From assembly GCA_002245135.1 (NCBI GenBank), contig NGBS01001165.1, positions 218,049-282,048 of the forward strand: DNA of 64,000 nucleotides. Reading direction: 5' to 3'. Shown here piece after piece: positions 4,382 to 64,000 of the stretch. Source of the stretch: Proteromonas lacertae. Lineage: Eukaryota > Sar > Bigyra > Opalinata > Proteromonadidae. The notes under the pieces were generated by a model, which did no database searches, was not told the origin of the DNA, and saw only the letters and a list, made by a program, of their open reading frames with translations. Positions within the stretch are counted from its first letter, which is position 1, and each line of letters begins with the position of its first letter. The translations under genes were made by a program, and so were the position numbers.

Positions 4382-4667
4382 TATTAAAAACAAAAATGAT
4401 TCTTTGATAATCAAACAATGAAGATGTTCAGTAATCAGAATCAATAAACACAAACTATATCAAGCTAATCAAAGAGTATTTTTTTCTTTTATATAATATC
4501 TAATTGAAGATATATATCTTCTTCATAACTCAAAAATAGAATTCAAATCAGGAAAGATTGATTTAAACTATTATCAAACTACATTCACTGGATATGAAGA
4601 AGATTTTAAGATTCTCAATATTTGTAAGCAAACTATAAATATTTAAGAAACAAAACTTAATAAATGA

Positions 4668-7792: not shown

Positions 7793-7843
<51 letters not shown>

Positions 7844-44184: not shown

Positions 44185-45694
44185 ATGGATATTAATGACA
44201 TGAAATTTACACCTCAACAACTATATGGAGGAGGTAAATATAGTTTAGGTACAAGAATAGGAAACTGGCAAGAGGATTATGAATTAGCAGCAGTATATTT
44301 GATTAATTATAGTATAATAGCAACGTCAAAAAGAATTTGAAATAAGAAAAATGAATGGACATTCTGCAGTTGCAGCAAGAGCAGAAAAAGTAAGAGCAGC
44401 ATTACAACCAGTTCCATTATCATATTCAGAAGATGGATATTTACATTATGGATATACAGTAATGTTTGTACACAAACTAGGTAGTCTAGCTGTAAATCTT
44501 TGGGAACCAGGTGTTGGAGTGAATGATGTATTGTCTTCTGTAATAGAAAGCAAGCAGCCAATGTCAAGAAACACATTCATATTAACCAAATTACCATTTG
44601 AGAATTACAAAGATGATTTAATTCGTTATGGTGATTGTTTTTGTATACAATCAGTTCCAGCATTACGAGCAGATCCAATAACAAATGTTACTCGTCCACC
44701 ATTCTATTTACACTCTGTATTGAAGAGATCAGATAGATTATCAAAATTAGCAAAAGAGCAGGAAGTATGTATGACTCAAGATGTAGATCAAGATGTAATG
44801 TTTAAAGTAATGCCAAGAAATCCAGTGAAGAGAGGTGTAGATGATGGTAAGCCGGTTGAAGCAAATATTCCAATCGTTTTATATCATGTTCGAAGTTATC
44901 AAGCTTTGGCTTGTAATAAACAGTATGATATGGGATCTGATTTTGGAGGAAAAGAGTATGAAGTATATTGCAAAACAACAACTTCATTTGCAGCAAATGG
45001 ATCATTAGAAAAAGAAATAAAAGGCTTGAGAGTTGCAAGCCAAACTTCCAAAGCAGAATTAATTGATAATGTTTGGACGATTGTAACAGCAGAAAAACCA
45101 ACAGAACATGTAAAAGAATACATTCCAATGGATCCTGAAACCATGTTGAAGATGATAAGAAGATCAGCTTACAGTAGAAGTGATCGAGGTGGTAGAGGCT
45201 TGTGTCGTGCATTAGAAGTAATGGATGAACATCACAGAGACAGATTACAATTGGAAGACTTACAATTCGCATTAAGAGATGTAGGAATGAGATTTGAGAG
45301 ATATGAAGTAGATATATTGATGAATGGATTTAAGCGAGAAGCTGATGGTACAATATCGTTGAATGAATTTATTGAAGCGTTAGTTCCTCCAATGCAAGAA
45401 AATCGATATAATGTAGTAATGGATATATTCCACATGTTAGATAATGAAAAGAACGGCGAACTATGTCTTAAGTTAATTGTGCCATTATATGATGTAAATA
45501 GTCATCCAACAATAAGAGAAGCTAAACTAACACAAGATCAAGCATTAGATCAATTCATTAATCATTTTCGATATACAATAAAACCTGGATTTATAAGTAT
45601 GAATGAATTTTTAGATTATTATTTGCTGTTAAGTTCAATGTATGAAAGTGATGAAGACTTTGAGACTTTAGTAAGAAGTAATTGGAGAATCTGA
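44185..45694 (+). CDS. CFAP161: CFAP161 with calcyphosin-like EF-hand extension
   Basis: Two exons, 44185-44292 and 44321-45694 (28-bp intron), join in frame to 493 residues. CFAP161 is a microtubule inner protein of ciliary doublets. The N-terminus has the family start (YSLGTRIGNWQEDYELAA), then the beta-rich core (LSYSEDGYLHYGYTVMFV; VLYHVRSYQALACNKQYDMGSDFGGKEYEVYCKT) to about residue 310. Residues about 325-493 are an EF-hand array resembling calcyphosin (FINHF, FISMNEFLDYYLLLSS, then a Trp near the end); the calcium loops are poorly conserved. Animal CFAP161 (about 300 residues) lacks this part. Residues from about 250 on are copied nearly unchanged at 50600 and 56740. The 3' flank is cut by a CR cassette at 45743. 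Confidence 0.92.
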
Positions 45695-45742
45695 TTATTT
45701 CAATAATAAATTTTATATATATTATCATTATTTGTTTGTTGG
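44962..45742 (+). repeat. long direct repeat, copy A (in CFAP161 3' end)
   Basis: This 781-bp stretch, from inside CFAP161 codons to 48 bp past its stop, recurs as copy B (50600-51380), also 781 bp with no length change. Its last part recurs as copy C (56740-57390). By eye I found no mismatch to B over most of the span, so the duplication is recent. It is the left direct repeat of CR cassette 1. Confidence 0.93.
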
Positions 45743-45753
45743 GTATTTGCAAT

Positions 45754-45980
45754 ATTCTTGATTTATATAAGAAATGAATTATACTAAACATTTGCAATGC
45801 TTTTGATATATATAAGAAATGAATTATACTGAACATCTGCAATGTTCTTGATTTATATAAGAAATGAATTATACTAAACATTTGCAATGCTTTTGATATA
45901 TATAAGAAATGAATTATACTGAACATCTGCAATGTTCTTGATATATATAAGAAATGAATTATACTGAACATCTGCAATTC
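45754..45980. repeat. five tandem copies of a 45-bp repeat
   Basis: The word GAAATGAATT recurs at 45771, 45816, 45861, 45906 and 45951, an exact 45-bp period. Alternate units differ in the same way (CTAAACATTT against CTGAACATCT), so there is also a 90-bp pattern. The array fills the space between the CFAP161 flank junction and the start of the CR gene at 46004 and is not seen at the other CR loci. Confidence 0.93.
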
Positions 45981-46003
45981 TTCTATTTTCTTATAAAGTT
46001 GAT

Positions 46004-48672
46004 ATGACACAGGAAATTGATATAAATTGTCAGATTATAAATTCAGATAATGAGATTAAAACGTCTGTTGGAGGTATACACTATTACGGGAATGGTTTTT
46101 TGATAAAAAGGGAATGCTATTCAAACATTTACGATAAAATGGATAATTACATCAGTATAGAGAATGGAATTCAAAAAAATTTCCTAGTTTATGGTAATAC
46201 AGGCATTGGTAAAACTAGTTTTTGCTTATATTTGTGTAGAGAACTTAAATGTGAAAGTAATTATCAAATAATATACAGAAGCTCTACCAACACATATTAT
46301 TACAAAAACGTAGGAGAGGATAGATATTCTGAAGTTGGTAGTCTTCCAGAAAGACAGGTAGGAATTAATCAAAAATCGATAATAATATGCGATGATTTAA
46401 TAATTTCAGAAGATGAATATAGTGAAGATGATGTGGTTATACTAGTAAGTGGTATGAAGTTGGAAAACTATAAAGTTATGCGTAGCAAGAGAGCTCCAAT
46501 ACAGTTCTGCCTTTTACCATTTAGTGATAAAGAAATTGAATTATATGTAGAATATATGAATAGTATAGCAATTCCACTTCAACCTAAATATAATAAGTAT
46601 GGTGGAATTCCTGGATTATTTGTTATGAATGTAAAGGAAGAAATTGAAGAAATTGAAAAGATTGATGTTTATGATGGTATTCCTGCCAAATATAATGAAT
46701 ATATCTATATTTATGATGTTGAAAATGAGTTTGAAATTCCTCAGAAATTGAAATTCATTTCAAAATATATTGAAGAAAAAGCATTAGAGAAAGTTGTTAT
46801 TGATAAAAACAATTATAATATTTATCTTACTCTTTTAACAGAAAGAATTGAAGGAGATAATGAGAAAATAGGTAAAGAAGGTGGATTATATTATGAACCG
46901 TTAATATTATATTATAAATCTTGTAATATAAAACACAAAATTAATGAAAAATCACAATTGGATGGATTAGATAGAAGCAAATTACCATTATTCATTAATT
47001 GTTCATTTCAATCTAATTTTGCATGTGTTGATGCGGTAGTGATAAATGAAAAATGTATTAATGGAATACAAGTAACTGTATCTGACCAGCACACTATTAA
47101 AGAATATGTAAGTATTTTATTCAATGTGATCTTTCAAAAAACATATGAAAAAAGAAAAGAACTGATACTTAGAATGTTTGAAAATAGAAAATTAACTAAG
47201 ATTACTGAGACTCTTTATTATTTAGGAGTATATTAATTATCTATAATATCAATATTTATAAATAGTATACACCATCATCGATAATAAATGAAAAATTACA
47301 GGTAGAAGTAATCAAGGATAAAGTAAAGAAATATATAGAAGAAGAATCAGTATTAAGATTTGGATCAAAATTGCTTATTTCATTAGAATTATTAACAAAT
47401 CCTAATGAAATAGAAAAGAATAAAAAAGTTAAAGGTATAATAAAAAAGAATAAAAAAATTGAAGGTATAACAAAAAAGAAAGTAAAGAGATTAATTCTAG
47501 ATGCAAAAGATTATGCTTATGACTGTTATATTCAGAATGAAATAGATAGAGAAATACTTTCAAGGGGAAGGACAAATAAAAAACTAAGATGTATGATAAG
47601 AAACAATATAATGGATGAAAATAAGAAAGTAATTATAAAGGAAATAAAAAAAGAAATGAAAAATGTGATTGGAAGTATGACAAAGGATGATTTCAGTAAA
47701 AAATATCTTAACAGAAATTATAATCCAAGATTTATAATTACAATGGTAAATCATAAAGAGAACGTAAGTATGGATATAGAAGAAGTATTTGACTTCAGCA
47801 GTTATGTTGAAGAATTGAAAATAAAAATGTCAAAATATATAGAACAAATTTATCCATCATATAATTCATTTAAAGACGCTGAAAAAAAGAGAATAATGAC
47901 AAATAAATTCTTAAGAGTGGAACAAGCAAATGAAATCATATCATATATTGATTTGGAGAGAAATAGAATAAACAATCCAGATTTAAATATTGAAAAGATG
48001 TATTATGGAGATGACAAACATGAAATTATGCATTATGATGAAGAAGATTTAAAAATAACAAAATCTCTAATCAGCAAATTAAGAAGTAACGAGAGAATGA
48101 AAAGATTTTTAGATTCAAATTTTATATTTTTAAATCCATCAAATATGATATGTAGCTCCTATAAGGAAGGTTTAGATAAGTTAGATATGATTTTATGTGG
48201 GTATATTTCTCCAACAACGTTTTATACTTCAGATGGACAAAGAAGGAATTATTATGATAGTAGCATGAAATTTCCAGTTGAAATACCATGTGTATTGATT
48301 GAATTAAAATACCAAGGTGAAAAACAAAATGTAATAGTTAAAGGGAAAAGTAGAGATGAACTACATCCTAATTTTTTTACATATGATAATTTGTATAGAT
48401 TAATTTTAAAAGCAAAATGTGTAGGCAATAAAAATGAAGTTTATAATATTACAGAAACTTTAACTTGTCCATATTGTAATAATGAAAAAATAATTCGAAG
48501 AGAATGTGAATATGTAAATGGTTTTAAAAATAGAAAAACATTCTATTGTTATAATTGTAAAATGAAAGTATCATGTATACCTAAATTAGATAATCAAGGT
48601 AATACAGAATTGAAATATGTAGAAGGTGGGATTGATATATATGTATATAATAAACGACAAGAAAAGCTATAA
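46004..48672 (+). CDS. CR-type P-loop NTPase + PD-(D/E)XK nuclease with second nuclease-like/zinc-ribbon domain
   Basis: Two exons, 46004-47227 and 47266-48672, joined in frame across a 38-bp intron; about 876 residues. NTPase 1: Walker A GNTGIGKTSF near 64, Walker B IIICDD, then VSGMK and SKRAPIQF. REase: Glu in YYEPL, Asp in CVDAVVI, Gln in GIQVT followed by His, all present, so this copy could be active. Exon 2 opens with Lys-rich helices, then a possible second nuclease core (LDMILCG, about 30 residues, VLIELKY: an Asp and an ExK) and a zinc ribbon (CPYCNN..CYNCKM). The layout resembles Crinkler/RHS effectors, where an NTPase is fused to a nuclease; that link is by motif. It overlaps the next reading frame, which carries NTPase 2. 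Confidence 0.7.
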
Positions 48673-50486
48673 ATATGGAACGTTTGCTTTTAATAGTGAT
48701 GATATTGAAACGGAATTAGAAGATGATGATTATATTCCTCCAGATAGTGATGAAAATAAAACGGAATTAGAAGATGATGATTATATTCCTCCGGATAGTG
48801 AAACTGCAACTAAAAGAAAAATTAACAGTAATGATAAACAGCATCAGTCTAAGAAGATTAAAAATAATACTTCGCCGAAGAGAAATAGTATATATATATA
48901 TATATATATTTGAGTATAATATAATAGGTTTTAATTATTTGCAATATATATTTAATGAAGATAAGTTCCTTCCTAAGTTTATATATAATGAAACATTGAT
49001 AGAAATTGATGATAGTTTAGATATATTTCAATATCCTATGCATAAAATATTGGTGAGAGATTATTACCCACTATTTTGGAAAAGAATAGAATGTAATATT
49101 ATTCTTAATTGTTTTTATAAGTATAGAGAAGATGAATTTGTTTTAAAGAAACTATTGAAATGCATAAATGTTGATGTTGATCCTTTAATTAATGAAGATG
49201 ATTTACATAAAATCGTTGAAAGAGAGAAAGAAGGATTAAAAAAGACTATTAAATATCAACCTGATAGAAATGGCGTTAAAAGTTACTATTTACTGAGAGG
49301 TCAACCAGGATGTGGAAAATCCACATTTTTAATTTATTTTATTTTAAAATTTATCCAATTGAAGGAAAAAATAGGTATTGATTTAGGTTTAACATATTAT
49401 AAAAGTTCAAAGAAAGAAGTTGAAAGACCAAGTGGTTTTGTTGCATATAATTTGGATGGAAGGTATTTAAAAGAAGAAGCTGCTGATCAAGATATAATAA
49501 TATGTGATTCATATGATATTCATAAAGATATATTTAAAAGAAGTAGTATAATTGTAAATGTCAGTTCTCCAGATAATAAAAACTATTCAAATATTATAGA
49601 TTTTAAACCAGGTAATAAAGTCTATTTCTATTTAGATATTTGCAATAAAAAAGAGATAGATATATGGAAAGCAAATTGTTTACCTAAAGATTTAGGAAAT
49701 GCAATTGATGAAGATCTTATTTCTTTATACAATCGAGTACCAAGACATTTATATTTTGCAGCAATATATAAGACATATTATAAAGATAGAAATTATTGGG
49801 ATGATATTTATACAAATTGTATTAAAACAACTGTGAATAGCCTTGGTTATTTTGGTTTTATAAAGAAATATCTTTATCCATGTGAAAGAGGTAAAACATC
49901 AAACTTGGAAGAGGATAATGGATTAATTGTTAATAGATTAGATACAGATTTGTCCCATTATGCAGTAAAATACAAAGTATTAGATTATGATTCAATTGAT
50001 AAATTTCAATTGGAATACATCTCTAACCAAGTATTTAAATTTCTGTATATATACTCAAGTCACACATGCAATAGAAGAGAATCTAATCTTATTAAGGAGT
50101 TTTTCTTTAATCAAATAGTATGGAAAAACAATCATCCTCTATATAAACTATTATTCAATGAATTATTATGGTATACAATGTTGTATAGTAATAATTGGAT
50201 TACTTTTGTTAATAAGTTTAATAATATTCGGAAGGATATATTTAATATATATTTCAAAAACACTAAAACCTCAATAGGATGTGGAGAAGGTTATTATATT
50301 GGTCAATTTATAATTGGTGATGATATTTGTTACATTTTTAATAATGTTGTTGTATTTCCATTTTCTCATGATATAGATAAAATAATGAATGATAAAGAAT
50401 TTAAACAGTATTTTGAATGTTATTCAAAAGATATTAACTGTATTGTTAATTATAAAGTATTTACAGTTGATGATATAAACTTTTAA
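48641..50486 (+). CDS. second CR-type P-loop NTPase (or C-terminal half of the preceding gene)
   Basis: Exons 48641-48887 and 48928-50486 join in frame across a 40-bp intron. The first exon encodes a tandem acidic repeat (ETELEDDDYIPPDS, twice) and a basic linker. The second encodes an NTPase: a VRDYY motif near the start as in RHS/CR proteins, Walker A GQPGCGKSTF, Walker B IIICDS, SSPD, and a long helical C-terminal region (PRHLYFAAIY; LLFNELLWYTMLY). It overlaps the preceding frame by 32 bp in another phase. Either it is a separate gene starting at the ATG at 48641, or a one-base frameshift near 48,625-48,640 has split one long protein; the right locus, where the same order is in one frame, favours the split. 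No AG/GT pair in this stretch restores the frame. Confidence 0.65.
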
Positions 50487-50599
50487 TTATAAAAATTACT
50501 ATTATTATTATTATTTGAGCTACATCTACTTCATCTGAAATATTAAACTAAAACATCTTTCGATTAAAAGGGTTTAATTTTAAAGTAATGGTTAGGTTT

Positions 50600-51332
50600 A
50601 GTATATTGCAAAACAACAACTTCATTTGCAGCAAATGGATCATTAGAAAAAGAAATAAAAGGCTTGAGAGTTGCAAGCCAAACTTCCAAAGCAGAATTAA
50701 TTGATAATGTTTGGACGATTGTAACAGCAGAAAAACCAACAGAACATGTAAAAGAATACATTCCAATGGATCCTGAAACCATGTTGAAGATGATAAGAAG
50801 ATCAGCTTACAGTAGAAGTGATCGAGGTGGTAGAGGCTTGTGTCGTGCATTAGAAGTAATGGATGAACATCACAGAGACAGATTACAATTGGAAGACTTA
50901 CAATTCGCATTAAGAGATGTAGGAATGAGATTTGAGAGATATGAAGTAGATATATTGATGAATGGATTTAAGCGAGAAGCTGATGGTACAATATCGTTGA
51001 ATGAATTTATTGAAGCGTTAGTTCCTCCAATGCAAGAAAATCGATATAATGTAGTAATGGATATATTCCACATGTTAGATAATGAAAAGAACGGCGAACT
51101 ATGTCTTAAGTTAATTGTGCCATTATATGATGTAAATAGTCATCCAACAATAAGAGAAGCTAAACTAACACAAGATCAAGCATTAGATCAATTCATTAAT
51201 CATTTTCGATATACAATAAAACCTGGATTTATAAGTATGAATGAATTTTTAGATTATTATTTGCTGTTAAGTTCAATGTATGAAAGTGATGAAGACTTTG
51301 AGACTTTAGTAAGAAGTAATTGGAGAATCTGA
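50600..51332 (+). pseudogene. CFAP161 3'-terminal fragment, copy B
   Basis: A fragment of CFAP161 codons lacking the first half of the gene, matching 44962-45694. The frame is open to the original stop at 51332, with the EF-hand region intact. It has no promoter or start of its own that I can see; the first in-frame Met would give a protein with only the EF-hand part. Probably a duplication remnant, though transcription of the EF-hand part is possible. The near-identity to copy A dates it as recent. Confidence 0.9.
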
Positions 51333-51718
51333 TTATTTCAATAATAAATTTTATATATATTATCATTATTTGTTTGTTGGTCATGAAATATTGTATAGTT
51401 AGTTTTCTGTTAATCTTTAATTTTCAAAATTTCCATCATTTTTAAGGCTCATTGTGATTAATATATTTACTCTTTGTATTACCAGTTATACAGAGAGATT
51501 ATTGGTATATACTTTCCAAACATCATGAATCTGTGAATGATGTTAATTTTGTTAAGCAGCACATCAGATGGATGAAATGAAATTGATTACATATAGTTAT
51601 TGATTAATATTTACTTTATGACATGTATATTACATGTAATTGACAAGTTTATAACTATACATTTCATTTGATAATTATAATAATTGAAGAGTATAGTTAT
51701 TGCATTTTATTTAATCTC
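51333..51718. repeat. CFAP161 3' flank (shared with copy C) and start of CR cassette 2
   Basis: No gene. 51333-51572 is the ancestral downstream flank of CFAP161, nearly identical to 57154-57390 apart from a 3-bp difference and a few substitutions. The match stops after CAGATGGA at 51572. 51573-51718 is unique and belongs to cassette 2, upstream of the NTPase start at 51719; it has a small ACATGTA..TACATGT palindrome near 51621-51637. Confidence 0.88.
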
Positions 51719-52849
51719 ATGGATTTCAATTATGTGATAAGGTATTCTGACATTAATAAGCTGGAGTTGATGGTAAAAAGTGAAAACAATAAGAAGGTAT
51801 ATTATTTTATGTATCCATCTTCTATTGAAGATCCACTTATTGTTTACTTCATTTTGATAAGAGATAGTTATGTTAATATTTATAACTCCATCAAAAATTT
51901 AGTAAAAAAGAATGAAGGTGTTGGTAAGAATCGAAGTGAAAGTGAGAATAAAAGAAGTAGGAATAGTCAGAATTGCTTTTTAGTGTATGGCAATCAAGGT
52001 TTAGGAAAATCTACATTATGCTGTTTTTTAGCGTATTTTCTTAATAATGACGATGATTTTGATGAATATAGTATAGTAGTATATGGTGTAAATGATTCAA
52101 AAGAAACTTATCACTATAGATTAGCAAATACTCATGAATTTCATATAAGATATCAAGTTATACCCGAATTAAAAGGCAAAACAATCATTATAAGCGATAA
52201 TGAACAGATTCATGAAGATGATTTCAGTGATGATAATGTAATAATTATGATCAGTTCTCCAAAAGCAGAAAAATATAAGATTATGGCAAATAAGAGATGT
52301 TGTATCCAATTCTACATTCAACAGTTCAATAAAGAAGAATTAAAGATTATAATTAATCAAAAAGAGAAATTAGATGATGATAAGAAAAAGAAAATATTAG
52401 ATAATGCACTTATATATGGAAACTTTACTGCAGGTTATTCATTTGAAGATATGCAAGGATATGTAAAATATTTTAAAGATAAAAAAGAAATGCCATTATT
52501 TATTCCACCCTCTTATGAAGAAGAAATATTTGTGTATGATACAAATCAAATTAATATAATACCTGACACCTTGAGATATTTATCAACAGAAATAGAACAA
52601 TATATATTAAGTCATTGCTTTTTTGATTTTAATGACTATAAATTATTATATGAAGTATTAGAAAGTGAATTATTGGATAAAAAAGATCCATGGATATTCG
52701 AAAGAATGTGTCACATTATATTCGAAGATAATAGTTATACTACTTATAATAAATGTAAAAAAGAATTACCATTTGATTTACCTGAACATACACTAACTTA
52801 TAGAGAAATGGATAAATTCAATGATTATCTTGATAATGGTGAGAAATAT

Positions 52850-53110
52850 AGGATTAGAAACTGTAAAATAAGCAAAGGAACACTTGTAAGTGGTAAAACT
52901 ACTGATCAAAATAGTACAACTGTAATAGAAGATGGAATATTAGCAGACTGTAAAATAACAAATGGATATGTGACAAAGGAATATACTAGAATTAAAGATT
53001 GTATAATTATGGGATTGAAAACAGTGAAAGATAAGAAAGAAGGTGATAAGATTAGTGGTTTAATAGAAGATGGTTTAATATCAGAAGGAGTTATATTTGA
53101 TGGCATTTAT
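52850..53110 (+). repeat. beta-solenoid-like repeats inserted in the REase domain
   Basis: Between the REase Glu and Asp motifs this copy has about 80 extra residues relative to the left locus, made of short units of the type I-x-D/K-G-x-I/L (ISKGTLVSG; IEDGILAD; ITNGYV; IEDGLISEGVIFDG). The period of about 6-9 residues recalls bactofilin- or hexapeptide-type beta-helices. Neither the left nor the middle copy has it. Confidence 0.55.
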
Positions 53111-55581
53111 TTGGATTTTGGAAGAATAATTAATTTTCCAGCAATAGATTCATGTATTATTAACAAGTATAGTATTAACTGGAGTTACAAATGACAATTT
53201 CTAACAATCATCCAACTAAGAATACTGTAATAGCATTTCTAAATGTATATTATTATTATTATTATTATTGTATAGATGTTATATAGCTATCATAAATCAT
53301 ATATAATCGATAATTTGAAAAGACTAAATAAATATATGAGTAATAATGAATACAACAAAGATATTCTTGCAAATGCGTTATATGATAATGGATATATCCC
53401 AAAGAATAAAAAGAGAGAGATAATAAATAGTATGGATAAAGAAAAGAGAATAATGTGTGAGAGTTATGTATGATATTAATATTTATATATTATTTATATA
53501 GTTTTTAATCAATGAACTTCATCATAGGGGATATAAAAACATATATGACGAAAAGTTTATAAAAAGATATTTAAATAAAAGAGATAGTGATGCATTAACT
53601 TATAATACATTATTATTGTATAGATCTATAATAAAGAATGAATCTCTATCAAGTGAAGAATTAACTAGTGAGGATGATTATAATTGTTATAGATCAAAAG
53701 ATATTAATAATTCAACCTTGAAAAGAGGTAGAAGTAGAAGTCAAAGTTTATATTCTATTAAAGTTAAAAAAATAAAACTTAATAATTATATAGACAATGA
53801 AGATAAAAGAAATAATACTGAAAAATTGATAAAAGAAATTGAAGGCATAGATATAGATGAACTAAAAAATAAGAATGATGAAGTTAAAGCTGCTATAAAA
53901 GATAAGCAAATATTACATGACTTAGATGATTATTTGATTGATGTAGTATACCATGATAAGAAAAATAATAAAGAAAAAAAAGAAATGAAGAATGATATTA
54001 TTGCTGTATATATATTATTGTATTATTATTATAGTCAATTAAAGAAGAAATCAATTCAGGTATTGATAATGAAGATATTATTAATCAATTGAATAAATGT
54101 AATCCAATATTTAATATTGTGTTTATTACATACAATCGAAATGAAGTAACATCATCACTTGAAGAAGGTGAAACTGATTTTGGACATTATGGAATATTTA
54201 AAGATAAAATAATAGAAGAAATGAAGAAAACTTACAAATGGGATGAAATGAAATCAACTGGTAAAGAAAATGAAATAACTTCTGCTGTTGGTACAGGAAA
54301 AGAAAATAATAAATCCAAAAAATTAATAATGTCAATAAAATCGAAAAGATTAAGATTTTCAACCTATAATATGAATTCTGATGAATTGAATGATTATTTA
54401 ATACATCAAAAAAATGTGGAAACATTACATTTGTATTTTGATGAAAAGAAAAATTCCATAGATTTAGAAGTCACAGGATATACAAACCCATCAGTAAATA
54501 TTATACATCATGGAATTGAAGAAAAAAAGATAGATTGTGATTATAGAATATGTGAAAAGATTATAAATAAACTAATCGATAATGAAAAGGCGAATGAAAT
54601 CTCAAAAGCTGTTTGTGATGTTGTTATTGATGAAAAAAACACAATCATTGAAGAATGGAAAAAACTAAACGAGAGTTTAATATTTGATGAAAAGAATGTA
54701 GCAATAAAATTATTGAATAACAGTATAGTATCAAATGAAATAAAAATATTAAAAATAATGTTTAATATAATAGAAAAAAATATAGAAAATTATAGTAAAA
54801 ATCGTACAAGTATATATATATATATATTAATTATATCAATAATAGGTACTAACTCTTTATGTAAAGTATTTGGAGATTCAACTCCACAATACAATGAGAA
54901 AGCTGAAACAATAAAAATTAATTGCGATATATACCAATATCCAAATAATCAAGTTTATATTAGAGATGTTTACAAGGTTATATGTGATGAATTAATCAGT
55001 CATATTTTAAGTTTTAAACTAAAGAATATAGAGGAAAATAATGTAGAGAGTCTCAAAAAAATTTGTCATGAATTGGGTTATAAAAATGTTACAGATGAAA
55101 AAGCAAAAGAAATTCGTGACGAGGTGATGAAGAATACCCTTTATGATAGAGATTTAAGAATTTTATTAAGAGGTAATCCAGGTTGTGGTAAAACTTCATT
55201 TGTTATCTATCTTCTATGTAGAATCATAGAATTAAATGAGAATATTGATGTTGGAATCAAAGCAACTGTTCTTAAAGCATCTGTGATTAAATCAATAGAT
55301 AATAAACCAATTTCTGATCAGTACAATTTAAAAGGTAAAAAAATGGATTATGATGTAGATAAAGAAATAACATTTTCTGATATTGTGATATGCGATTCTT
55401 ATGATATTCAAGCTACAGATTGTAAAGGTAATATTTATTTATATGTCACTTCACCAGATTATAAAAATTATGCAAATTTTTCAAAAAGTACTGATGATGA
55501 TCATAGAAAATATTATTTTATGGATGTATTTAGTAAAGATGAAATTGAAAAATGGGAAGAAAATTGTTTACCAGATGATTT

Positions 55582-55588
55582 AAAAAAG
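55582..55588 (+). other. A AAA AAG slippery heptamer immediately before an in-frame TAG
   Basis: In the zero frame the codons are TTA AAA AAG TAG, so A-AAA-AAG is in slippery register and the stop follows directly. A -1 shift here enters exactly the frame in which the rest of NTPase 2 is open (55588-56556). A one-base deletion or an assembly error in the six-A run would look the same. I did not find an obvious strong stimulatory stem just downstream. Confidence 0.5.
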
Positions 55589-56739
55589 TAGCAAAAAGGT
55601 TTAATAGTAGATATGGAAATATTCCAAGACATATCTATTATGCTTCAATATATGATGTTTGTTATGGTGAAGATTATTGGGATAAATTATATTCAAAAGG
55701 TATAAAAAGAATCGTTGGTAAACTTGGTTATATGAAATTTTTAAGGACATATATATATCCCTGTGAATCAAATGAAAAGGAAGATAAAATATCCAATAGA
55801 ACAACAACATTTGATAGTACATTATGTCATTATATAGTGAAGTATTCTATTCCCTATGTAGATGAAGAGAATAAAATCAAATATTATGATAGAATTAATG
55901 AACATGAGATGGAATTCATATCAGATGAAGTATTCGATTATATTTATGATTGTGTTAAACACAAAGCTGTAGAAGATGATGTTAAGAATATGCAGGAACA
56001 ATTTAAAATAGTTTATGAGGAAGGTAATACTTCCCAATTATTTAGGTTATTATTTCAAGAATTAGTTTGGTATAACTGTTTATATCATGGTAATAAGATA
56101 ACTCTTGATGATAGTGTATTAGTTGAAGAGATTGAAAATAATATATTAGAAGTATTTATGAATCTGTTTGATGGTGATATCTATTGTAGTAATGATAATA
56201 AATACTGTTTAGTTCATTTAGCAACATTGAAGAATAGAGAAATGATTTACTTATTGAATAACTGTTTTATTCATGTAATAAATGATCAACGAGAAATATT
56301 GGATTGTGATGATCAAATAAAAGAATGTATATGTGGTTTGCAACAAATGGTGAATTTTAAAAGAATGTATTATATTACAGTATCCAATGATAAATCACCT
56401 GGATCGTCACCTAAAAAATCACCGTGTATATCAAAAGTATTAGTTTCACATTATAAAGGCGATAAAACCAAAAGAGATGCAAAAATTACATATTGTAAAT
56501 CTATATTTGGAGATTCAGTGTATGGAAATAATTTCAATGTACAAACAAACATGTAGAGGCAAATCAACAGAATTAGGTAATAAATGTGGTATGAGTGAAA
56601 ATTTTGAAGAAAAAGATGATGATGAAGAGGAGAATAACAAAATGACAGATATATATTCTTCATCTTTTTCATTGCAACAACAACATTCACAACCATCTAT
56701 TCCTTATACTGCAAGTAATATGAAAGAAGAAGATATGAA

Positions 56740-57153
56740 GTAGGAATGAGATTTGAGAGATATGAAGTAGATATATTGATGAATGGATTTAAGCGAGAAG
56801 CTGATGGTACAATATCGTTGAATGAATTTATTGAAGCGTTAGTTCCTCCAATGCAAGAAAATCGTTATAATGTAGTAATGGATATATTCCACATGTTAGA
56901 TAATGAAAAGAACGGCGAACTATGTCTTAAGTTAATTGTGCCATTATATGATGTAAATAGTCATCCGACAATAAGAGAAGCTAAACTAACACAAGATCAA
57001 GCATTAGATCAATTCATTAATCATTTTCGATATACAATAAAACCTGGATTTATAAGTATGAATGAATTTTTAGATTATTATTTGCTGTTAAGTTCAATGT
57101 ATGAAAGTGATGAAGACTTTGAGACTTTAGTAAGAAGTAATTGGAGAATCTGA
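56740..57153 (+). pseudogene. CFAP161 3'-terminal fragment, copy C
   Basis: Matches 45281-45694 with at least two substitutions (CGATAT to CGTTAT near 56862; CCAACA to CCGACA near 56968). It encodes only the last 135 residues, the second half of the EF-hand region, open to the original stop. It is the right-hand direct repeat of cassette 2, together with its flank to 57390. Confidence 0.9.
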
Positions 57154-57390
57154 TTATTTCAATAATAAATTTTATATATATTATCATTATTTGTTTGTTG
57201 GTCATGAAATATTGTATAGTTAGTTTTCTGTTAATCATTTTTCAAAATTTCCATCATTTTTAAGGCTCATTGTGATTAATATATTTACTCTTTGTATTAC
57301 CAGTTATACAGAGAGATTATTGGTTTATACTTTCCAAACATCATGAATCTGTGAATGATGTTAATTTTGTTAAGCAGCACATCAGATGGA
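57154..57390. repeat. CFAP161 3' flank, copy C, up to Maverick junction
   Basis: The same sequence as 51333-51572, ending in the same CAGATGGA. This is the last host-like sequence before the Maverick. Confidence 0.85.
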
Positions 57391-57427
57391 ATATATGTAT
57401 AACCGTAAGAATATCACTGTAGGTGGG

Positions 57428-57510
57428 TAACCCGTACCAGACTATTCTTAGGTGCCTTCTACAGGTAAGAATAAGCGATTTGAGTGTAAATTAGTTTTTG
57501 GTACGGGTTA
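57428..57510. repeat. nested hairpin in Maverick terminal region
   Basis: 57428-57439 (TAACCCGTACCA) is the exact reverse complement of 57499-57510. Inside it TATTCTTA (57443-57450) pairs with TAAGAATA near 57475. The region starts 38 bp from the element end and is the most GC-rich patch nearby. It is either the terminal inverted repeat's binding region for integrase, or a structured transcript. Confidence 0.7.
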
Positions 57511-57654
57511 TACTGGAGCAAGTGGTGAGTTTAAATTTCTTTATATATTTTAGTGTATGAGTAATTTTATGGGTTAAAATTTTTCTTTTGTTTTTTGTAT
57601 ATAATTTCATTTAACTTTTTCTTATTGTTTTTTATCAATCATAATTTCAAAAGA

Positions 57655-57996
57655 ATGTCAAGAATTTGGATCGAGAATGTTAATATAGAAGATAGAAATA
57701 AGCGTGAAGATGAAGACTTTGAAAGAATCTATGCAATCATTGAAAGTGAAGTAGCTAGAATAGTAGCTGAGCCACCTCCAGTAGTAATGTGGTATACTTC
57801 TGATACAGCTGATGAGGATGACAGAAAGTATGAAGAATGGCGTGCAATTCATAAACCAACCAGAGTAGCACAAGCAACCATACGCCCTAGAAAATGGGTT
57901 GATCCTGAAGAAGAGCGCAGAAAAACAAAGATGTTAAAGCGTTATGGTATTGATGAAAAAAACATCATTGAAGAAAGACTAAGATTTCATAACTAA
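57655..57996 (+). CDS. Maverick small protein 1, unknown
   Basis: A 113-residue intronless frame starting at the Met at 57655 (an earlier start at 57595 would add a hydrophobic stretch of low value). It is charged, with EEER and KTKMLKRYGIDEKN near the end and no cysteine motif, signal or membrane segment. I do not recognise it. Position next to the element end and the same orientation as the following two genes suggest an element-encoded accessory protein. Confidence 0.6.
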   Translation: MSRIWIENVNIEDRNKREDEDFERIYAIIESEVARIVAEPPPVVMWYTSDTADEDDRKYEEWRAIHKPTRVAQATIRPRKWVDPEEERRKTKMLKRYGIDEKNIIEERLRFHN

Positions 57997-58035
57997 TTCT
58001 TAAATCATTGGTTTTAATTGAATTTTTGTTATTTG

Positions 58036-58048
58036 ATTGGCTGAATAG
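58036..58048 (+). promoter_or_regulatory. inverted CCAAT-type motif upstream of Maverick gene 2
   Basis: 58031-58040 is ATTTGATTGG, the reverse complement of the CCAATCAAAT motif found twice at 62732-62761, here 77-85 bp upstream of the start at 58125. It is a candidate shared promoter element of this Maverick, based on three occurrences. Confidence 0.35.
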
Positions 58049-58124
58049 AAATAAACATAATATTACATAATTCTTTTCATTCATAAATTTCTTGCGATTT
58101 TTGAAATAATCTACATAAATTAAA

Positions 58125-58709
58125 ATGAGTGATATACAAAACGAATTAGATGCTAATATTGAAAAACACTTACAAGAAGGTGAAATGTATGAGAATGATA
58201 TGTCTGAAGTAAAATCATTAATTATTAAAGTATTCAAGGATATGTTGGATGGTATGTATTCTGTGATTGAAGAGTATGAAGATGATCCAGAATGGAGTGA
58301 ACAACCAGGTGATGATATTGATATAACAATGGAAGAAGAAGAAGTGAAGGAAGAAAAACAAAGTGAATCTAAATCTAAAAAAAGAAAGGATATAACAAAG
58401 TCAGATTCAGATTCACAAGTGTGTAGTACTTGTGGTAAGAAGAAAGCTAATGATGAATTTGGTTATAAGAGTGAAGGTGTATTCTATAAATCTTGTACAG
58501 AGTGTAGAAATAAGAAGAAGAGAAGATATGAAGAAGTAAAGAAAGGAAGTGATAATAGTGGAGAAGATAAGAAGCGTAAAGTAGAGAATAGTTCCACTGC
58601 CGAGGGTCGACCAAAGGTAGATATTGCTAAAGTAGATTGTTCTACAAGTCCTATCCCGGGGGTAGCTACAGTAGATCTAACTACATCACCTACCTGTATA
58701 ATTAATTAA
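58125..58709 (+). CDS. Maverick protein with C4 zinc motif, unknown
   Basis: A 194-residue frame. The N-terminal 90 residues are acidic. Residues about 102-135 hold CSTCGKKKANDEF, then a basic spacer and SCTECRNKKKRRYEE: a Cys-x2-Cys ... Cys-x2-Cys zinc site followed by a basic stretch. Such a CxxC-F-CxxCR layout is common in virus- and transposon-encoded proteins that bind nucleic acid. The C-terminal part is Ser/Thr-rich. The exact role is unknown. The start codon is in the context AAATTAAAATGAG. Confidence 0.65.
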   Translation: MSDIQNELDANIEKHLQEGEMYENDMSEVKSLIIKVFKDMLDGMYSVIEEYEDDPEWSEQPGDDIDITMEEEEVKEEKQSESKSKKRKDITKSDSDSQVCSTCGKKKANDEFGYKSEGVFYKSCTECRNKKKRRYEEVKKGSDNSGEDKKRKVENSSTAEGRPKVDIAKVDCSTSPIPGVATVDLTTSPTCIIN

Positions 58710-58773
58710 CTTTTGGTTTAAAATTCATTTTTATATTTCTATACGTTTTTATATATAAATAATTTCACATAAT

Positions 58774-59157
58774 ATGCCATATAATTCATCTTTAGTTATG
58801 TTAGGTGATATGAAAGATACTTTAAATGGTTTGAAACAAGAACTGTATATTTTATTAGGTTGTGTAGTTCTATGGGTTCTTTATAAATGCAAGAGAATAT
58901 GTGCATGGTGTTATCATAAAGCCTGTCCTCCAGAATTAAGTGAAATATTAGCTGAGCCAGAACCTGCTGTTCAATTAGCATTAAGAAAATCTACTATTGT
59001 TTCTGCTATTCCATTTACTTTAACACCTGAAAATAGTAGAATAAATTCTAGAAATGCTAGTGATAATGAAGATGAAGAGCAATTAGAAACAGAAATAGAA
59101 ATTATTCCTATTAATAAACCTGAGATTGAAATTCAAAAACCAATCATAAATATTTAA
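58774..59157 (+). CDS. Maverick small membrane protein, unknown
   Basis: A 127-residue frame with one hydrophobic segment (LYILLGCVVLWVLY, about 25-40) followed by a Cys/Lys-rich juxtamembrane part (KCKRICAWCYHKACPPE) and an acidic C-terminus. A single-pass membrane protein is likely. I do not recognise the family; small membrane proteins occur in Polintons and related viruses. Confidence 0.6.
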   Translation: MPYNSSLVMLGDMKDTLNGLKQELYILLGCVVLWVLYKCKRICAWCYHKACPPELSEILAEPEPAVQLALRKSTIVSAIPFTLTPENSRINSRNASDNEDEEQLETEIEIIPINKPEIEIQKPIINI

Positions 59158-59338
59158 TTTTATATATAGTCTTTTTTCGTATTTGATTTTTGAAAGTTAT
59201 TTTTTGTACCCCCTTAAATATTACATAAAGAAAAACCGTTTTATTTTTCATTCACACTTTTCTTACTCATTTTCAGTATTTTATTTTTTTCATTTTTTAC
59301 TTTAATAGAAAATTAATTATTCAATCATTCAATCAAAA

Positions 59339-60511
59339 ATGCCAGCAGACAGAGTCAAACAACCAACCAATTCAGAATTATGCTCCCAGCTTCCATTAAA
59401 GGGACAGGCTTATGAGTTCTATCAGAAAGTGAGTCGTAACATCCAGCATTTAAAGACATTTTGCGACGAAATGTATATTCAAAGTTTGGCTTATGATGAC
59501 AGCAAAAAATCAAAGAAGAAGCAAAGTCCACCACAATTCAACTATATCGAATTAGAGAAGTCAGCTACAGCAGTTTATTATTGCTTTTCATGTAAGTTTG
59601 ATAATCAGAAGTTAATTCCCATTAAACATCTAGAGACATTAGATCAAAATGAGTATATGAATTTATACTTTAGTGACGAAGAGATGAAGAGTATAGTAAA
59701 ACCAGATGTAAAACAGATTAAACCTTTTATTCAACCTCAGTTAAAACAACAACAACAACCACAACAAGAACCACCACCACCAACTGTACCTCAAAAACCT
59801 AAAAGAGTTTATAAAAGAAGAACTGATACTGTAAAGAAACCTAAAACAAAAGCAGTTATTGATAGTGATGATGAATTAATTCATTTAAAGAAAAGAAAGA
59901 TTGTTAAGGATTCTGATTTTGTTGACGAACCAGTGGGTATAATTGTGAAAGATACTGAATCAAGAACATCTGCTGATGATTTATTAAGTAGCCAAAGTCC
60001 TACCTTTACACCTCCAATGTCACCAAGGTCTGATACTACACTTCTTGATGTTACTGATATTGATATACTGGATGCTGAATTGAAATATTTTAATGCTGAA
60101 ATAACTAAAAAAGATGAAGAAAAACAAAAAGAGATAGAAGAGAAAATTAAGCATCAAGATGCAGAGAGAAAGAAACAAGAAGATGAAGAAAAAAAGAAAA
60201 AACAACAAGAAGAAGAAAGAGTTAGAAAAGTACAAGAAGAAGCAGAGAGAAAGAGAAAACAAGAAGAAGCAGAAAAGAAAAGAAAAGAAGAATTAGTGGT
60301 TATTAGAATGCTTCAAGAAGAAGAGAATATGAGACAACAAGAAGAGTTAAGAAAGAAATGGGTATTAGAACAAAAGAGACAAATGGAAGAAAAGATGAAA
60401 AAAGAAAACGATGAATTAGAAAAGAAGATGGAAGAAGAGTTTAAGAAAAGAATTGAAGAAGAGAAAAGAAAGAAAGCTGAAGAGTTTGAGAAGATGATGA
60501 AGAACTTATAA
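59339..60511 (+). CDS. Maverick coiled-coil protein, unknown
   Basis: A 390-residue frame. Residues 1-120 look folded (QAYEFYQKVSRNIQHLKTF; CFSCKFD). Residues 120-235 are Gln/Pro-rich, basic and Ser-rich (KPKRVYKRR). Residues about 255-388 form a highly charged EEERKRKQEEAEKK coiled coil or single alpha-helix. It is the longest plus-strand gene of the element in this window. I do not recognise it; structural or DNA-binding roles are both possible. The upstream region is AT-rich with a doubled CAATCA word just before the start. Confidence 0.6.
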   Translation: MPADRVKQPTNSELCSQLPLKGQAYEFYQKVSRNIQHLKTFCDEMYIQSLAYDDSKKSKKKQSPPQFNYIELEKSATAVYYCFSCKFDNQKLIPIKHLETLDQNEYMNLYFSDEEMKSIVKPDVKQIKPFIQPQLKQQQQPQQEPPPPTVPQKPKRVYKRRTDTVKKPKTKAVIDSDDELIHLKKRKIVKDSDFVDEPVGIIVKDTESRTSADDLLSSQSPTFTPPMSPRSDTTLLDVTDIDILDAELKYFNAEITKKDEEKQKEIEEKIKHQDAERKKQEDEEKKKKQQEEERVRKVQEEAERKRKQEEAEKKRKEELVVIRMLQEEENMRQQEELRKKWVLEQKRQMEEKMKKENDELEKKMEEEFKKRIEEEKRKKAEEFEKMMKNL

Positions 60512-60650
60512 GTATTAATATATACTTTAAATTTGTCTGGTTTATGCTTTAATCCATATACTTGAAAAAAGCACTTTGAATTCATTACTTTGATGAAAAT
60601 TGGTGTTTGTTTTATATGTAAAAAATAACATAAATAAAAAACATAAAAAA

Positions 60651-61812
60651 TTATACGAAATCATTAAATAGCGAATTTTTCTTATATACTCTACCATATC
60701 TACTTTTTCTGCCTTCTGGTACTGGTTGAATATCTGGTTCTATAGGTTGTGCTTCATTATTTATACTATGAATTTGTCTTAATCTAAACTTACCATTTGT
60801 TGTAATACTATTAACTGGTACTCTTTTTATTTCATGAGATTTGAATCTATATGAGCCTATATCTCTAGGATTGAATTCTCTAGGTATTGTTCCATCCAAG
60901 TTCTTAACAGAATATGAAAATGGTCCAACTTTGTGTATTTGGTATACTTTATCAGTATAATAAGTAGTTTTTTGAAGTTTGTTATCTCTACGTTCTTTTA
61001 TTCTGACAAAATCATCAGCTTTAAAATGAGTATCACTTTTACGCTTCTTTAAGTTTCTAGCATGGGATTCTTTTATACAATCTATCTTGGACTTCAAAAT
61101 CATTGAATACTTCATTTGGAGTTAGATTATTGAGTGCAGAATGTGGTTTTGCATTGTAATCATCTACAACAGTATATACTATATTACACAATGATTCAAT
61201 ATTGTTAATTTTATCAAATTCTTCATCAGAAAATGTATTAATTTTTCTATAAAACATATCTTTAATAGTTCTCCACACATCGATCCAATATTTTCATTAT
61301 ATTATGTTCATTACGTTCTTTAAGTATAAATCGTATATGATTTTTGTTAAACAAATCTAAAAATTTCTTACCATAGATAATACCAGACTCTTCATCTGAC
61401 AATATACTTCCTACAAAACGAGCGTTTTCATCCTTAGGTTGCATACCCTGATAAACCATTTTTCAAACACTGGATATACATCATTTTCTGATTTAGATTT
61501 AACATAATATATCCAACACTTACGACTAACAACTTCTATAATTAACAAAAATGGAACTTTTGTATTGTTGAAAAACACCAAATCTATTTGATATGACCCA
61601 GGTAACTTTTCAATTTCATATTTAATTCTATTCCTTTTAGTTGCAGTGATTTGATAATCTGGTTTAGACTCTACAAGTTCACTACTAGCTTTTTTAATGT
61701 CAGATTTTTTAAAGTTATTCTCAAGTTCATTTACAGAGAAATTAATAAAGTCTCGTTTGTTTAAATAACCATATGTTTTGTATAACTCATTTATTTTATC
61801 TTGTAGTGACAT
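60651..61812 (-). pseudogene. Maverick integrase (retroviral-type DDE), frameshifted
   Basis: Reading from 61812: an N-terminal helical part, then the RNase H-like core with the first Asp in YQIDLVFF and an IIEVVSRKCWIYYV strand, the second Asp in ILSDEESG, a Glu about 35 residues further (KERNEHN), and a C-terminal SH3-like domain (DDFVRIKERRDNK; YYTDKVYQI). The frame changes three times, near 61411-61459, 61262-61278 and 61057-61115, each by one base. No splice pair fits the overlaps. The core motifs identify a Polinton-type integrase; the breaks make it inactive unless they are assembly errors. It would carry out element insertion with a 5-6 bp target duplication. Confidence 0.85.
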
Positions 61813-61872
61813 TCAAACAATATATAAAAAAATATGAATGATATATTTTAAAGAATTAATGAATTAAAATAA

Positions 61873-62646
61873 TTAAATCATTTCTTCTACCTCTCCCAAA
61901 TCCTTATCACTTAAAGCGTTACCAAAGTTAATAGACTTAGCAGCACTAATAAAACCATTACTAATTACTTTCTTAGCAGGGAATGGTCTACGAGTACTAA
62001 TTAAATCACTATCTTCTATCTTAGTTCTCTTAATTCTTGGAGGTGAAACAAATTTGTTTTGATTAGCTTGTTCTTTCTTAATTTTCTTCTCATTACTTCT
62101 TCTAATAGTTGTAGCTAAATCAGGATTTTCATCATAACCAACAATATCACTACAAACTCTATGATTAACAAAGTTTTGAGTACCATTACTCTTAATAGAG
62201 ATTTGATTATCAACAACACTTACAGCAATTTTACTACCAACATCAACATCAGATGGAACTCTATAGTTACTATTATCCCATATCATAATAGAATTGAAAT
62301 TGTGGAAGTATTTAATACCATGTTGAGGTTCTCTACATCCTACACTAATCAAATATCCACGAATGATTTTTTCTATAAAGTCATTCTCGTTTCTATCATA
62401 AATTTGTTTCAATACATATTTCACTTCATCAGCTGAATATGTTTCAAAATCTCTTCCATTATTAATTACAACTTTATGATCCAAATCATGAACAAAAGTA
62501 ATCAATACATATTGACTAGTTTTAGTAGGCTTAACTGTAATACTCTCAACAGTTCCTTTAATAATCCACTTGTTACATAACTTTGGATTCTTGTAGTAAT
62601 CACTGAATTCTACATCTGTAGCTTCATAGGGTGTTTCGTTACTCAT
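61873..62646 (-). CDS. Maverick protein, possible OB-fold nucleic-acid-binding, unknown
   Basis: A 257-residue intact frame, unlike the integrase and polymerase beside it. The first half has strand-rich stretches (WIIKGTVESITVKPTKTSQYVLITFVHD; YLISVGCREPQHG) that could be an OB fold. The second half is basic and disordered with KKIKKEQ and PPRIKRTK nuclear-localisation-like motifs and an acidic C-terminal end (DLGEVEEMI), as in single-strand DNA-binding proteins. That reading is an inference from composition. Shares a 160-bp divergent promoter region with the polymerase gene. Confidence 0.6.
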   Translation of the reverse strand: MSNETPYEATDVEFSDYYKNPKLCNKWIIKGTVESITVKPTKTSQYVLITFVHDLDHKVVINNGRDFETYSADEVKYVLKQIYDRNENDFIEKIIRGYLISVGCREPQHGIKYFHNFNSIMIWDNSNYRVPSDVDVGSKIAVSVVDNQISIKSNGTQNFVNHRVCSDIVGYDENPDLATTIRRSNEKKIKKEQANQNKFVSPPRIKRTKIEDSDLISTRRPFPAKKVISNGFISAAKSINFGNALSDKDLGEVEEMI

Positions 62647-62731
62647 TTTATATAAGGGAGAGATGAAAATAAAAAATGATTAAAAAATGTCAAGAAAAAT
62701 GAAAATGAAAATTTCTTTTTATTTTTAAAGT

Positions 62732-62761
62732 CGACCAATCAAATCATCCGACCAATCAAAT
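62732..62761. promoter_or_regulatory. paired 13-bp CCAAT-containing direct repeat between divergent Maverick genes
   Basis: CGACCAATCAAAT occurs at 62732-62744 and again at 62749-62761, centred between starts at 62646 (minus) and 62807 (plus). The same CCAATCAAAT core is at 58031-58040 in the other orientation. Likely a transcription factor site used by several element genes. Confidence 0.5.
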
Positions 62762-62806
62762 TTCATATTTCATTTTTGATTTATTTCGCGAATTCTGTCT
62801 ATATAT

Positions 62807-64000
62807 ATGAGCAAACATAAAAAGCTTTTAAAAGCATTTTTTAAACTTCTAGAACAAACTTTTAATAAAAATAAACATCATAAGCATAAGCATCACCATC
62901 ATCATAAACATAAACATACAGATGAACTACCACCAGAAGAAGCTCCAAAACGAAGATTAGCGCCATTATTTAGTACAGATGCTATTCAAAATAAAAAAGA
63001 TATAATAATGATATACCAATAATCAGTGATACATTCTTTGGTGGATTAATGCCTTCTTCCCTACCAAAACCTAACCAAAATCAAAGATTTAATGATAGAA
63101 TACGTGATGCTAGAGAAGTTGATAAATCATCTCAAGGTGTTACCAGGAAATGGGTTTTCAATTATAACAATAGAAATTACAGTACACCACAACAATGTTA
63201 TCATGATTTTGTTAATAATAGTGATATCAAAGATATATTACATGAACTAGCTGATACTATGAATATGATCAAATTTTTCTTTATTGTACGTTCAATTTAT
63301 ATACCTGATGAGTCTACTGACAGTGATGATGAAGTTTCTATATTTAGTCGTAGTAGACTATGTGAAATAACAAAATGTCTACTGTAGGTGAAATACAAAC
63401 TATACTGGAGAATATATTTACACAAATATCAGAAGATGATTCAAATCATCCTCAAAGTGGTCTTACTTTTGCTAGAGTAAATACTATAGAATTATATGTA
63501 ACAAAATTTAAAGTGATACGTGGAAGTAGTTTTATTGTTTTACCTGCTAAACTTCAAGGTCTTAGATGTTTAACAAATGTAATAAATGAAGATAATGAAT
63601 GCTTTAAGTGGAGTGTACTATGCTCTTTTATATTCTAATAATCTACAATGTAATAAAGATAAACCTGAAAAATACAAAATGTATGAAAAGAAACATGATT
63701 GGAGTATGTTAACATTCCCTGTTGATGCTACAGACAATGAATTATTGATAAGTTTGAAACAAAGAATCGACTAAATGTGAATATATTTTATATTGATATT
63801 GCTAAAGATAAAGAAGAAATATTCTTACCCATTCATTTATCTAAACAAAAGAAATCTAAAAAATATAGTGTTGTAAATCTATTGCTAATAAAAATGAAGA
63901 TGGAAATTCACACTATGTAACAATAAATACCTTACCTGCTCTATTTAGAAAAATGATAGATAAAAAGAATAATACTAATAATATATTTGTGTGTCCATAT
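62807..64000 (+). pseudogene. Maverick B-family DNA polymerase, N-terminal part, frameshifted and cut by window end
   Basis: Starts at 62807 with a His/Lys-rich stretch. A conserved N-terminal polymerase region follows: VLPAKLQGLRCLTNVINEDNECFKWSVL (63540-63625), then a YEKKHDWSMLTFPV block, a V-N-x-F-Y block, VVNLLLI and HYVTINTLPAL, the order found in the N-terminal domain of Maverick polymerases of animals and protists. The exonuclease and polymerase motifs would lie beyond the window. The frame shifts at about 63000-63020, 63375-63387, 63605-63640, 63765-63775 and 63875-63895, five times in 0.9 kb. It is a self-synthesising element's replicase, here dead. Confidence 0.8.

Follow-up and report, generated by a model that had tools for sequence, protein, structure and literature searches.

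We analysed a window of 64,000 nucleotides from the genome of Proteromonas lacertae (assembly GCA_002245135.1, contig NGBS01001165.1, positions 218,049 to 282,048), in which the flagellar gene CFAP161 is followed by two cassettes and by partial copies of its own 3' end. Each cassette contains two P-loop NTPase genes, and a Walker A motif is readable in 4/4 of them. The features are listed in Table 1. The window forms the right end of its contig, numbered C392 in the genome that was searched (50.2 Mb, 1181 contigs). When the window was compared with itself by BLAST, eight matches longer than 60 bp were obtained, three of which concern the CFAP161 copies, here called A, B and C. A (44962-45742) and B (50600-51380) are identical without a gap over 781/781 bp, B (50916-51572) and C (56737-57390) align over 657 columns with 98.8% identity, and A and C are 99.4% identical across 465 bp. 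The three 3'-end copies described in an earlier note on this DNA are thus borne out, and so is its statement that a functional CFAP161 stands intact upstream. The protein encoded by this gene contains a PF24569 domain (47.4 bits, cutoff 27) and C-terminal EF-hands, and its top match in the PDB is CFAP161A. A CFAP161 that is 91% identical (P0001) comes from a second isolate or a sister species. Searching the genome with it gave 33 matches, only one of which, at 44351-45691, covers the whole protein. The remaining 32 never start earlier than residue 204, and 6 of the 33 are other EF-hand proteins with 21-27% identity.

Table 1. Features of the CFAP161-cassette locus (coordinates are positions in the window; ORF, open reading frame)
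Feature	Coordinates	Strand	Remarks
CFAP161, intact	44351..45694	+	single open frame, 447 aa; whole-protein match unique in genome
Copy A, CFAP161 3' part from ~aa 205 + 48 bp beyond stop	44962..45742	+	
45-bp tandem repeats, 5.1 copies	45748..45978	+	upstream of cassette 1 gene 1
Cassette 1 gene 1, pieces	45968..48672	+	stop-to-stop ORFs 45968-47236 (Walker A GNTGIGKT) and 47266-48672 (Cys-pair, zinc-ribbon-like)
Cassette 1 gene 2, P-loop NTPase-like	48771..50486	+	GQPGCGKS
Array-unit tail remnant, 42 bp	50558..50599	+	ends in telomere-like GGTTAGGTTTAG, overlapping first bases of B
Copy B, CFAP161 3' fragment (50600-51380) + 3' flank	50600..51572	+	start is a junction known at 12 genome places, its own included
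Conserved 5' edge motif of cassette family, TGACATGTATATTACATGTAATTGACA	51619..51645	+	~73 bp ahead of start codon
Cassette 2 gene 1, first stop-to-stop ORF	51644..53194	+	516 aa, Walker A GNQGLGKS
Cassette 2 gene 2 region	53502..56556	+	ORFs 53502-54092, 54035-55591 (GNPGCGKT) and 55579-56556
Copy C, CFAP161 fragment	56737..57390	+	left, presumed deletion of ~840 bp relative to C363; right, repeated element
High-copy repeated element	57391..64000	.	first 800 bp searched; probably Polinton-like; contig end presumably inside element

The distribution of the 781-bp stretch in the genome was then considered. Of its nine near-full-length occurrences, the window accounts for two and contigs C363, C364, C365 and C367 for seven. 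On these four contigs the CFAP161 fragment repeats every ~6.77 kb, head to tail. C363 carries fragments at 2466 (hereafter F1), 9117, 15894 and 22671, with a fifth, truncated, at 29420; the unit starts at 9117, 15894, 22671 and 29420 give a near-constant length, in agreement with the match of C363 to itself. Full-length fragments have a gene pair similar to that of cassette 2 behind them wherever the contig extends that far, and with the exception of F1, the first copy on C363, the fragments in the arrays start at the base equivalent to 44962. CFAP161 fragment, cassette and a tail of ~0.45 kb form units arranged head to tail. The tandem duplication carrying the cassettes that had been suggested in the earlier note is thereby supported, the ~6.77 kb arrays on the four contigs having the same junction. 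Used as a query, the unit tail gave 12 genome matches, and 12/12 terminate on the first base of the fragment; when the 12 junctions were compared with the gene, one on C365 was found displaced by small gaps. The window holds one of the 12, where the last 42 bp of the tail match at 93% and ~20 bp more match past a gap of ~40 bp. The junction is also found on five other contigs, in versions that can be told apart: the window lacks part of the tail, and C848 matches at 97%. The 42 bp of array-unit tail ahead of B identify it as the head of such a unit, so that its origin does not lie in the arrival of cassette 1. Contrary to what had been proposed, cassette 1 does not reach 50599, the last 42 bp up to that point being the tail remnant.

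Copy C is delimited differently. The repeat that starts at 57391 has 41 genome matches; base 57391 is part of 39 of them, the remaining two start at contig base 1, and a query placed across the equivalent point of B reaches C no further than 57390 (query bases 1-103). The right edge of copy C is thus the place of a repeated element, presumably inserted there; the right-hand side of such an insertion at 57390 was looked for on other contigs (24 matches) and none was recognised. The placing of the border of cassette 2 at 51572/51573 must be revised, because the match between B and C stops there merely where the repeated element starts in C; the cassette family's own 5' edge lies at ~51607-51645. 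An integrase-like ORF is present in the element on the minus strand (61411-61812; integrase core 15.6 bits, below the cutoff of 32.6), and the contig ends 6.6 kb past the right edge of C. On its left side, C can be compared with C363, whose cassette end is the same (98.5%, window 54951-56738) but leads on into ~840 bp absent from C. Part of this stretch is degenerate CFAP161 (three pieces of 27-44 bp at ~88%, plus shorter ones), leading into F1. C differs from B at five sites; it shares the F1 base at two of them, one of which is also the array's. The best reading of C is a fragment of the F1 type that has undergone a deletion and an insertion.

The right end of the array on C363, C364 and C367 stops within the fragment, at the edge of a second repeat; 35 of the 73 matches to this repeat start at its first base, those on the three contigs among them (a 33-bp match being excluded). 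C367 leaves the second repeat after 221 bp and continues in TTAGGG repeats to its right end. This end of C367 suggests a link to a telomere, the window contig stopping before any telomere. The window array is probably subtelomeric and may itself lie at a chromosome end.

We examined whether fragments and cassettes have the same history. Between B and unit u2 of C363 the fragment matches in two parts, at 100% and 99.8%, and the following 77 bp at 98.7%; beyond this point identity is 87.8% (115 bp), 96.2% (78 bp) and 75-90% in seven cassette segments. Between B and F1, the 3' flank is 100% identical over 193 bp and the cassette 75-94%. F1 itself is composed of two ages, with degenerate pieces up to ~aa 255 and an identity of 98-99% thereafter. 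Along B, the informative sites are in order 81 array-like, then 18 F1-like, with the switch inside the fragment; counted from 50771, where the alignment is sound, they are 7 then 18, most of the 81 lying in the degenerate part of F1. Not a single synonymous change (0 in 243 codons) separates CFAP161 from the array fragment, whereas the synonymous divergence (dS) of gene 1 amounts to 0.335 between window and array, 0.263 between array and C986, and 0.249 between array and C216. In a tree of 15 cassettes (14 different), the array groups with C986 and C216 at 100/100 and window cassette 2 falls outside. For C986 and C216, no CFAP161 match was found in either genome search or in the 4.2 and 3.6 kb, respectively, upstream of the cassette. 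A single clade of CFAP161-linked cassettes is rejected by the approximately unbiased (AU) test (p-AU 8e-91 without C916 and 5e-72 with it), the groups having been defined by CFAP161 linkage in the tree script after the dS table had hinted at the outcome. As the fragments are near-identical but the cassettes have diverged, with discordant groupings in the tree, fragment and cassette have separate histories and are not inherited together. These separate histories point to recombination acting at or near the fragments.

Diverged or short pieces of the CFAP161 3' end were also found outside the arrays, on seven contigs. On six of them (C916, C848, C830, C974, C981 and C117) the piece lies within ~1 kb of cassette-type genes; on the seventh, C276, no cassette-type gene is present in the 10 kb examined. 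The piece is located ahead of gene 1 on C916 and C117 and after gene 2 on C848. C830, C974 and C981 look like copies of one locus. The chance of finding 6/7 pieces near cassettes is ~2e-6 when the part of the genome no more than 5 kb away from listed cassette matches is taken as 8%, a rough figure in that the 8% counts every listed row separately, from lists of best candidates, and the contigs are not independent.

Taken together, these results make it probable that a subtelomeric tandem array of P-loop NTPase cassettes, with two genes each, begins here beside CFAP161, the fragments serving as recombination hinges. What the sequences show is a CFAP161 3' fragment fused onto a cassette at the latter's 5' edge, in a unit of fragment, cassette and tail (~6.77 kb) that recurs head to tail. 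In the proposed scheme, crossing-over, break-induced replication or gene conversion between fragments, perhaps with the intact CFAP161 too, would keep the fragments alike and shuffle which cassette goes with which fragment. In the window, B is the head of one unit, joined to the unrelated cassette 1, and C is read as the head of a further unit, cut by the presumed deletion and by insertion of the repeat. The repair pathway, like any benefit to the cassette, is something we infer.

Several points weigh against this interpretation. It leaves unaccounted for the first fusion and the position of cassette 1. On C830, C974 and C981 the CFAP161 piece lies on the downstream side of an NTPase piece, and no cassette is headed by it within the stretch examined. 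Conversion, a crossover in the fragment and recent copying would each fit the discordance between fragment and cassette alike. The left half of F1 is 92.7% identical to B, with 151 gap positions. Contigs C363-C367 may belong to another chromosome end than the window, the link being the 98.5% match of the left end of C363 to 54951-56738, and they may be haplotype versions of one array, so that the 12 junctions do not amount to 12 independent events. Finally, the entire evidence comes from one assembly.

The surroundings of cassettes away from CFAP161 bear on several other explanations. Six cassette-2-like loci (C986, C216, C776, C290, C808 and C991) were analysed in stretches of at most 10 kb, that of C290 being cut by the contig end, and 0/6 have direct repeats of at least 100 bp around the cassette; C216, C776 and C991 each contain one tandem repeat of 82-87 bp within the stretch. 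Flanking duplication is not the rule at cassettes, and the expectation that other loci would be flanked by copies of a neighbouring host gene did not hold at these six. Host-gene fragments nevertheless abut three of them: CFAP57 on C991 and C776, and kinesin on C290. Related NTPase genes are found upstream at the other three (C986, C216 and C808). The CFAP57 pieces are 84-92% identical to parts of window 6895-7933 and lie ~30 and 50 bp from the shared cassette segment. CFAP57 has its own gene in the window (6588-10551), and what is found directly beside the cassettes on C991 and C776 are decayed fragments of it (L034:2357-3112 and L032). CFAP57 gave eight matches in the genome (the window gene, one; a full second copy on C757, one; C991 and C776, four; the contig edge of C743, one; a weak match, one), a search made after a fragment had been seen beside a cassette and hence not an independent test. 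A control gene of the window gave, besides itself, three adjoining matches on C759 (aa 1-578), which were read as one second, partly frame-shifted copy. The kinesin motor fragment of C290 (PF00225, E 1.6e-14; L030:3118-3456) is antisense, in a frame that begins 13 bp from the cassette edge. The recurrence of the pattern with one class of gene had been taken as the sign of a mechanism. This is half right: the pair of cassettes is no record of two insertions, but the tendency of cassettes to adjoin host-gene fragments (CFAP161, CFAP57, kinesin) stands.

This tendency is an argument for regarding the cassette as a mobile element that captures host-gene pieces at its 5' edge, like Helitrons or Pack-type elements. 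The three kinds of fragment are all near the 5' edge of the cassette homology, CFAP57 and kinesin within ~50 bp, and the near-identical cassettes of C290 and C808 have different left surroundings. We consider this unlikely: neither a transposase nor terminal repeats or target duplications came to light, though no systematic search for them was made, the right ends of the shared segment vary between pairs, and C776 and C991 have part of the CFAP57 fragment in common, possibly from one capture. A broader version of the idea is equally doubtful. NTPase cassettes would be self-spreading and would gain, at a 5' edge that is fixed, pieces of host genes in their neighbourhood, above all genes of the axoneme or of microtubules (CFAP161, CFAP57, kinesin), each piece then becoming a homology arm, either for swaps beside the intact host gene or for array expansion at chromosome ends, possibly via telomere-healed breaks, as interstitial TTAGGG beside the edge might indicate.

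Selection could also maintain the CFAP161 fragment as a promoter or insulator of the cassette, or as a translated EF-hand protein, its identity then reflecting constraint. Fragment frames of 247 aa are indeed open in B, in three C363 units and in C367, and an open frame of 161 aa is kept in the diverged copies of C830, C974 and C981. We regard this as very unlikely, however. No synonymous site has changed and the 3' flank retains 98.7% identity over its first 77 bp, which disfavours constraint as the cause of the fragment identity; the C916 copy has stops and gaps and still heads a cassette, and several cassettes have no fragment in the stretch examined. That collapsed or mis-joined reads produced the three copies is highly improbable. 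The contig ends soon after entering a high-copy repeat, the fragments of C365 and C364 contain small gaps, and the analysis was made on assembled contigs; but the junction is present on five other contigs in distinguishable versions, and window cassette 2 differs from unit u2 by 10-25% in every cassette segment measured, so the two are not one collapsed repeat. It is barely credible that a transposition-like or staggered-break insertion of each cassette duplicated a target of 650-780 bp. The perfect 781-bp repeat around cassette 1 and the overlapping 657-bp repeat around cassette 2 gave that impression, and the copies had been likened in the earlier note to a very long target duplication. We rejected this explanation, with which neither the left side of B, where the 42 bp of unit tail form the same junction as in the arrays, nor the right side of C, bounded by the repeat, can be reconciled; the 0/6 result at the other loci is also contrary to it. 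An early step might have been the Campbell-type integration of a circle with the CFAP161 tail on it, which would also give flanking direct repeats, but these are accounted for by the array with no circle needed.

The products of the cassettes were examined with protein models. With the cassette ORF pieces that were tested, neither Pfam nor NCBIfam gave a match above the model's cutoff, P-loop models of Pfam matching below cutoff only, and for seven pieces no Crinkler or RHS model of Pfam was obtained at E values up to 1. Gene 1 has conserved G-K and acidic motifs, as well as a conserved FPxIDG...GxQxT...H stretch, which we read as a putative nuclease-like domain and for which the structure model is of low confidence. 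The model of cassette 1 gene 1 has a mean per-residue confidence (pLDDT) of 44.8 and is fairly confident only around the NTPase core. The cassettes probably encode conflict proteins that combine NTPase and nuclease, of the Crinkler-RHS kind, a class reportedly defined in a review by Zhang et al. in 2016 (see PMC5289972); this label, abbreviated "CR" in the earlier note, is plausible from the architecture and not established. For ten copies of gene 1 (45 pairs), the ratio of nonsynonymous to synonymous divergence (dN/dS) ranges from 0.41 to 0.69, which suggests that many copies are still under some constraint. The genome searches with cassette genes scored the best 83 of 346, 83 of 290 and 99 of 396 candidates, and family counts are accordingly lower bounds.

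Subtelomeric conflict-gene families recombine. To our knowledge, the homology that they use is usually their own sequence or dedicated repeats. The sections consulted of a study on Trypanosoma cruzi describe RHS as a large family, ~30% subtelomeric, subject to unequal crossing-over, ectopic recombination and gene conversion (PMC7563717). The cassettes resemble that family, as there described, in being probably subtelomeric and shaped by recombination; recombination there is described among the RHS genes, whereas here a flagellar-gene fragment heads the cassettes and constitutes the shared homology (PMC7563717). For the CRN genes of Phytophthora sojae, the corresponding sections report tandem and segmental duplication, exchange of fragments, duplicates sharing flanks of variable length, and Polinton as the most abundant nearby repeat (PMC3726527). 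These traits have counterparts at the cassettes, where the nearby repeat is probably Polinton-like, but a repeated host-gene fragment as unit head is not described in those sections (PMC3726527). In the VSG system of Trypanosoma brucei, 70-bp repeats upstream of the cassettes are said, in the part of the article used, to provide homology for exchange with subtelomeric cassettes (PMC8612549). A repeated block upstream of each cassette is present here also and may work alike by analogy; unlike in that account, the homology block of the window is a gene fragment, and nothing at the locus points to an expression site, switching or a silent archive (PMC8612549). What characterises a VSG-like arrangement, a homology block upstream of cassettes with conversion or crossover passing through it, was found in our data. 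Among the titles and abstracts of the literature matches listed, no host-gene fragment is described as the head of such units. Here the units begin with a piece of a flagellar gene that is unrelated to the cassettes, and this piece is far more alike between units than the cassettes behind it. The fragment, probably a neutral marker, makes cassette exchange measurable, and the intact CFAP161 may be exposed to conversion by its own fragments. The locus also calls for caution, since an insert can come to lie between long perfect direct repeats without target duplication.

Some further features of the cassettes were noted. The 5' edge TGACATGTATATTACATGTAATTGACA is common to cassettes, partly varied, and is replaced by a different sequence at C776 and C991. 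Slightly upstream of the edge, (TTAGGG)3 occurs at C986 and C216 (L029:5845-5862 and L031:3517-3534); in an exact-match scan of 288 kb, at least two repeats were found elsewhere, away from telomere ends, only at C981 (at least one site). Repeats similar to the 45-bp repeats of cassette 1 are present on seven other contigs, and on each a match to a related gene 1, oriented alike, is located 0.2-0.7 kb further downstream. The closest relatives of cassette 1 gene 1, among the matches listed, lie off these seven contigs, and one 75-bp piece matches upstream of the C916 gene. On C808 (L033), where the stretch gave no CFAP161 match, genes like those of cassette 1 and of cassette 2 keep the same order and the same orientation. 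A frame beside the end of gene 2 on C216 (L031:8848-9999) encodes a ubiquitin hydrolase domain (PF00443, E 1.3e-23); by eye, the frames after gene 2 on C776 and C991 resemble it, and none was seen after window cassette 2. A further cluster of related NTPase genes is located at the opposite end of the window, on the minus strand (630-4459).

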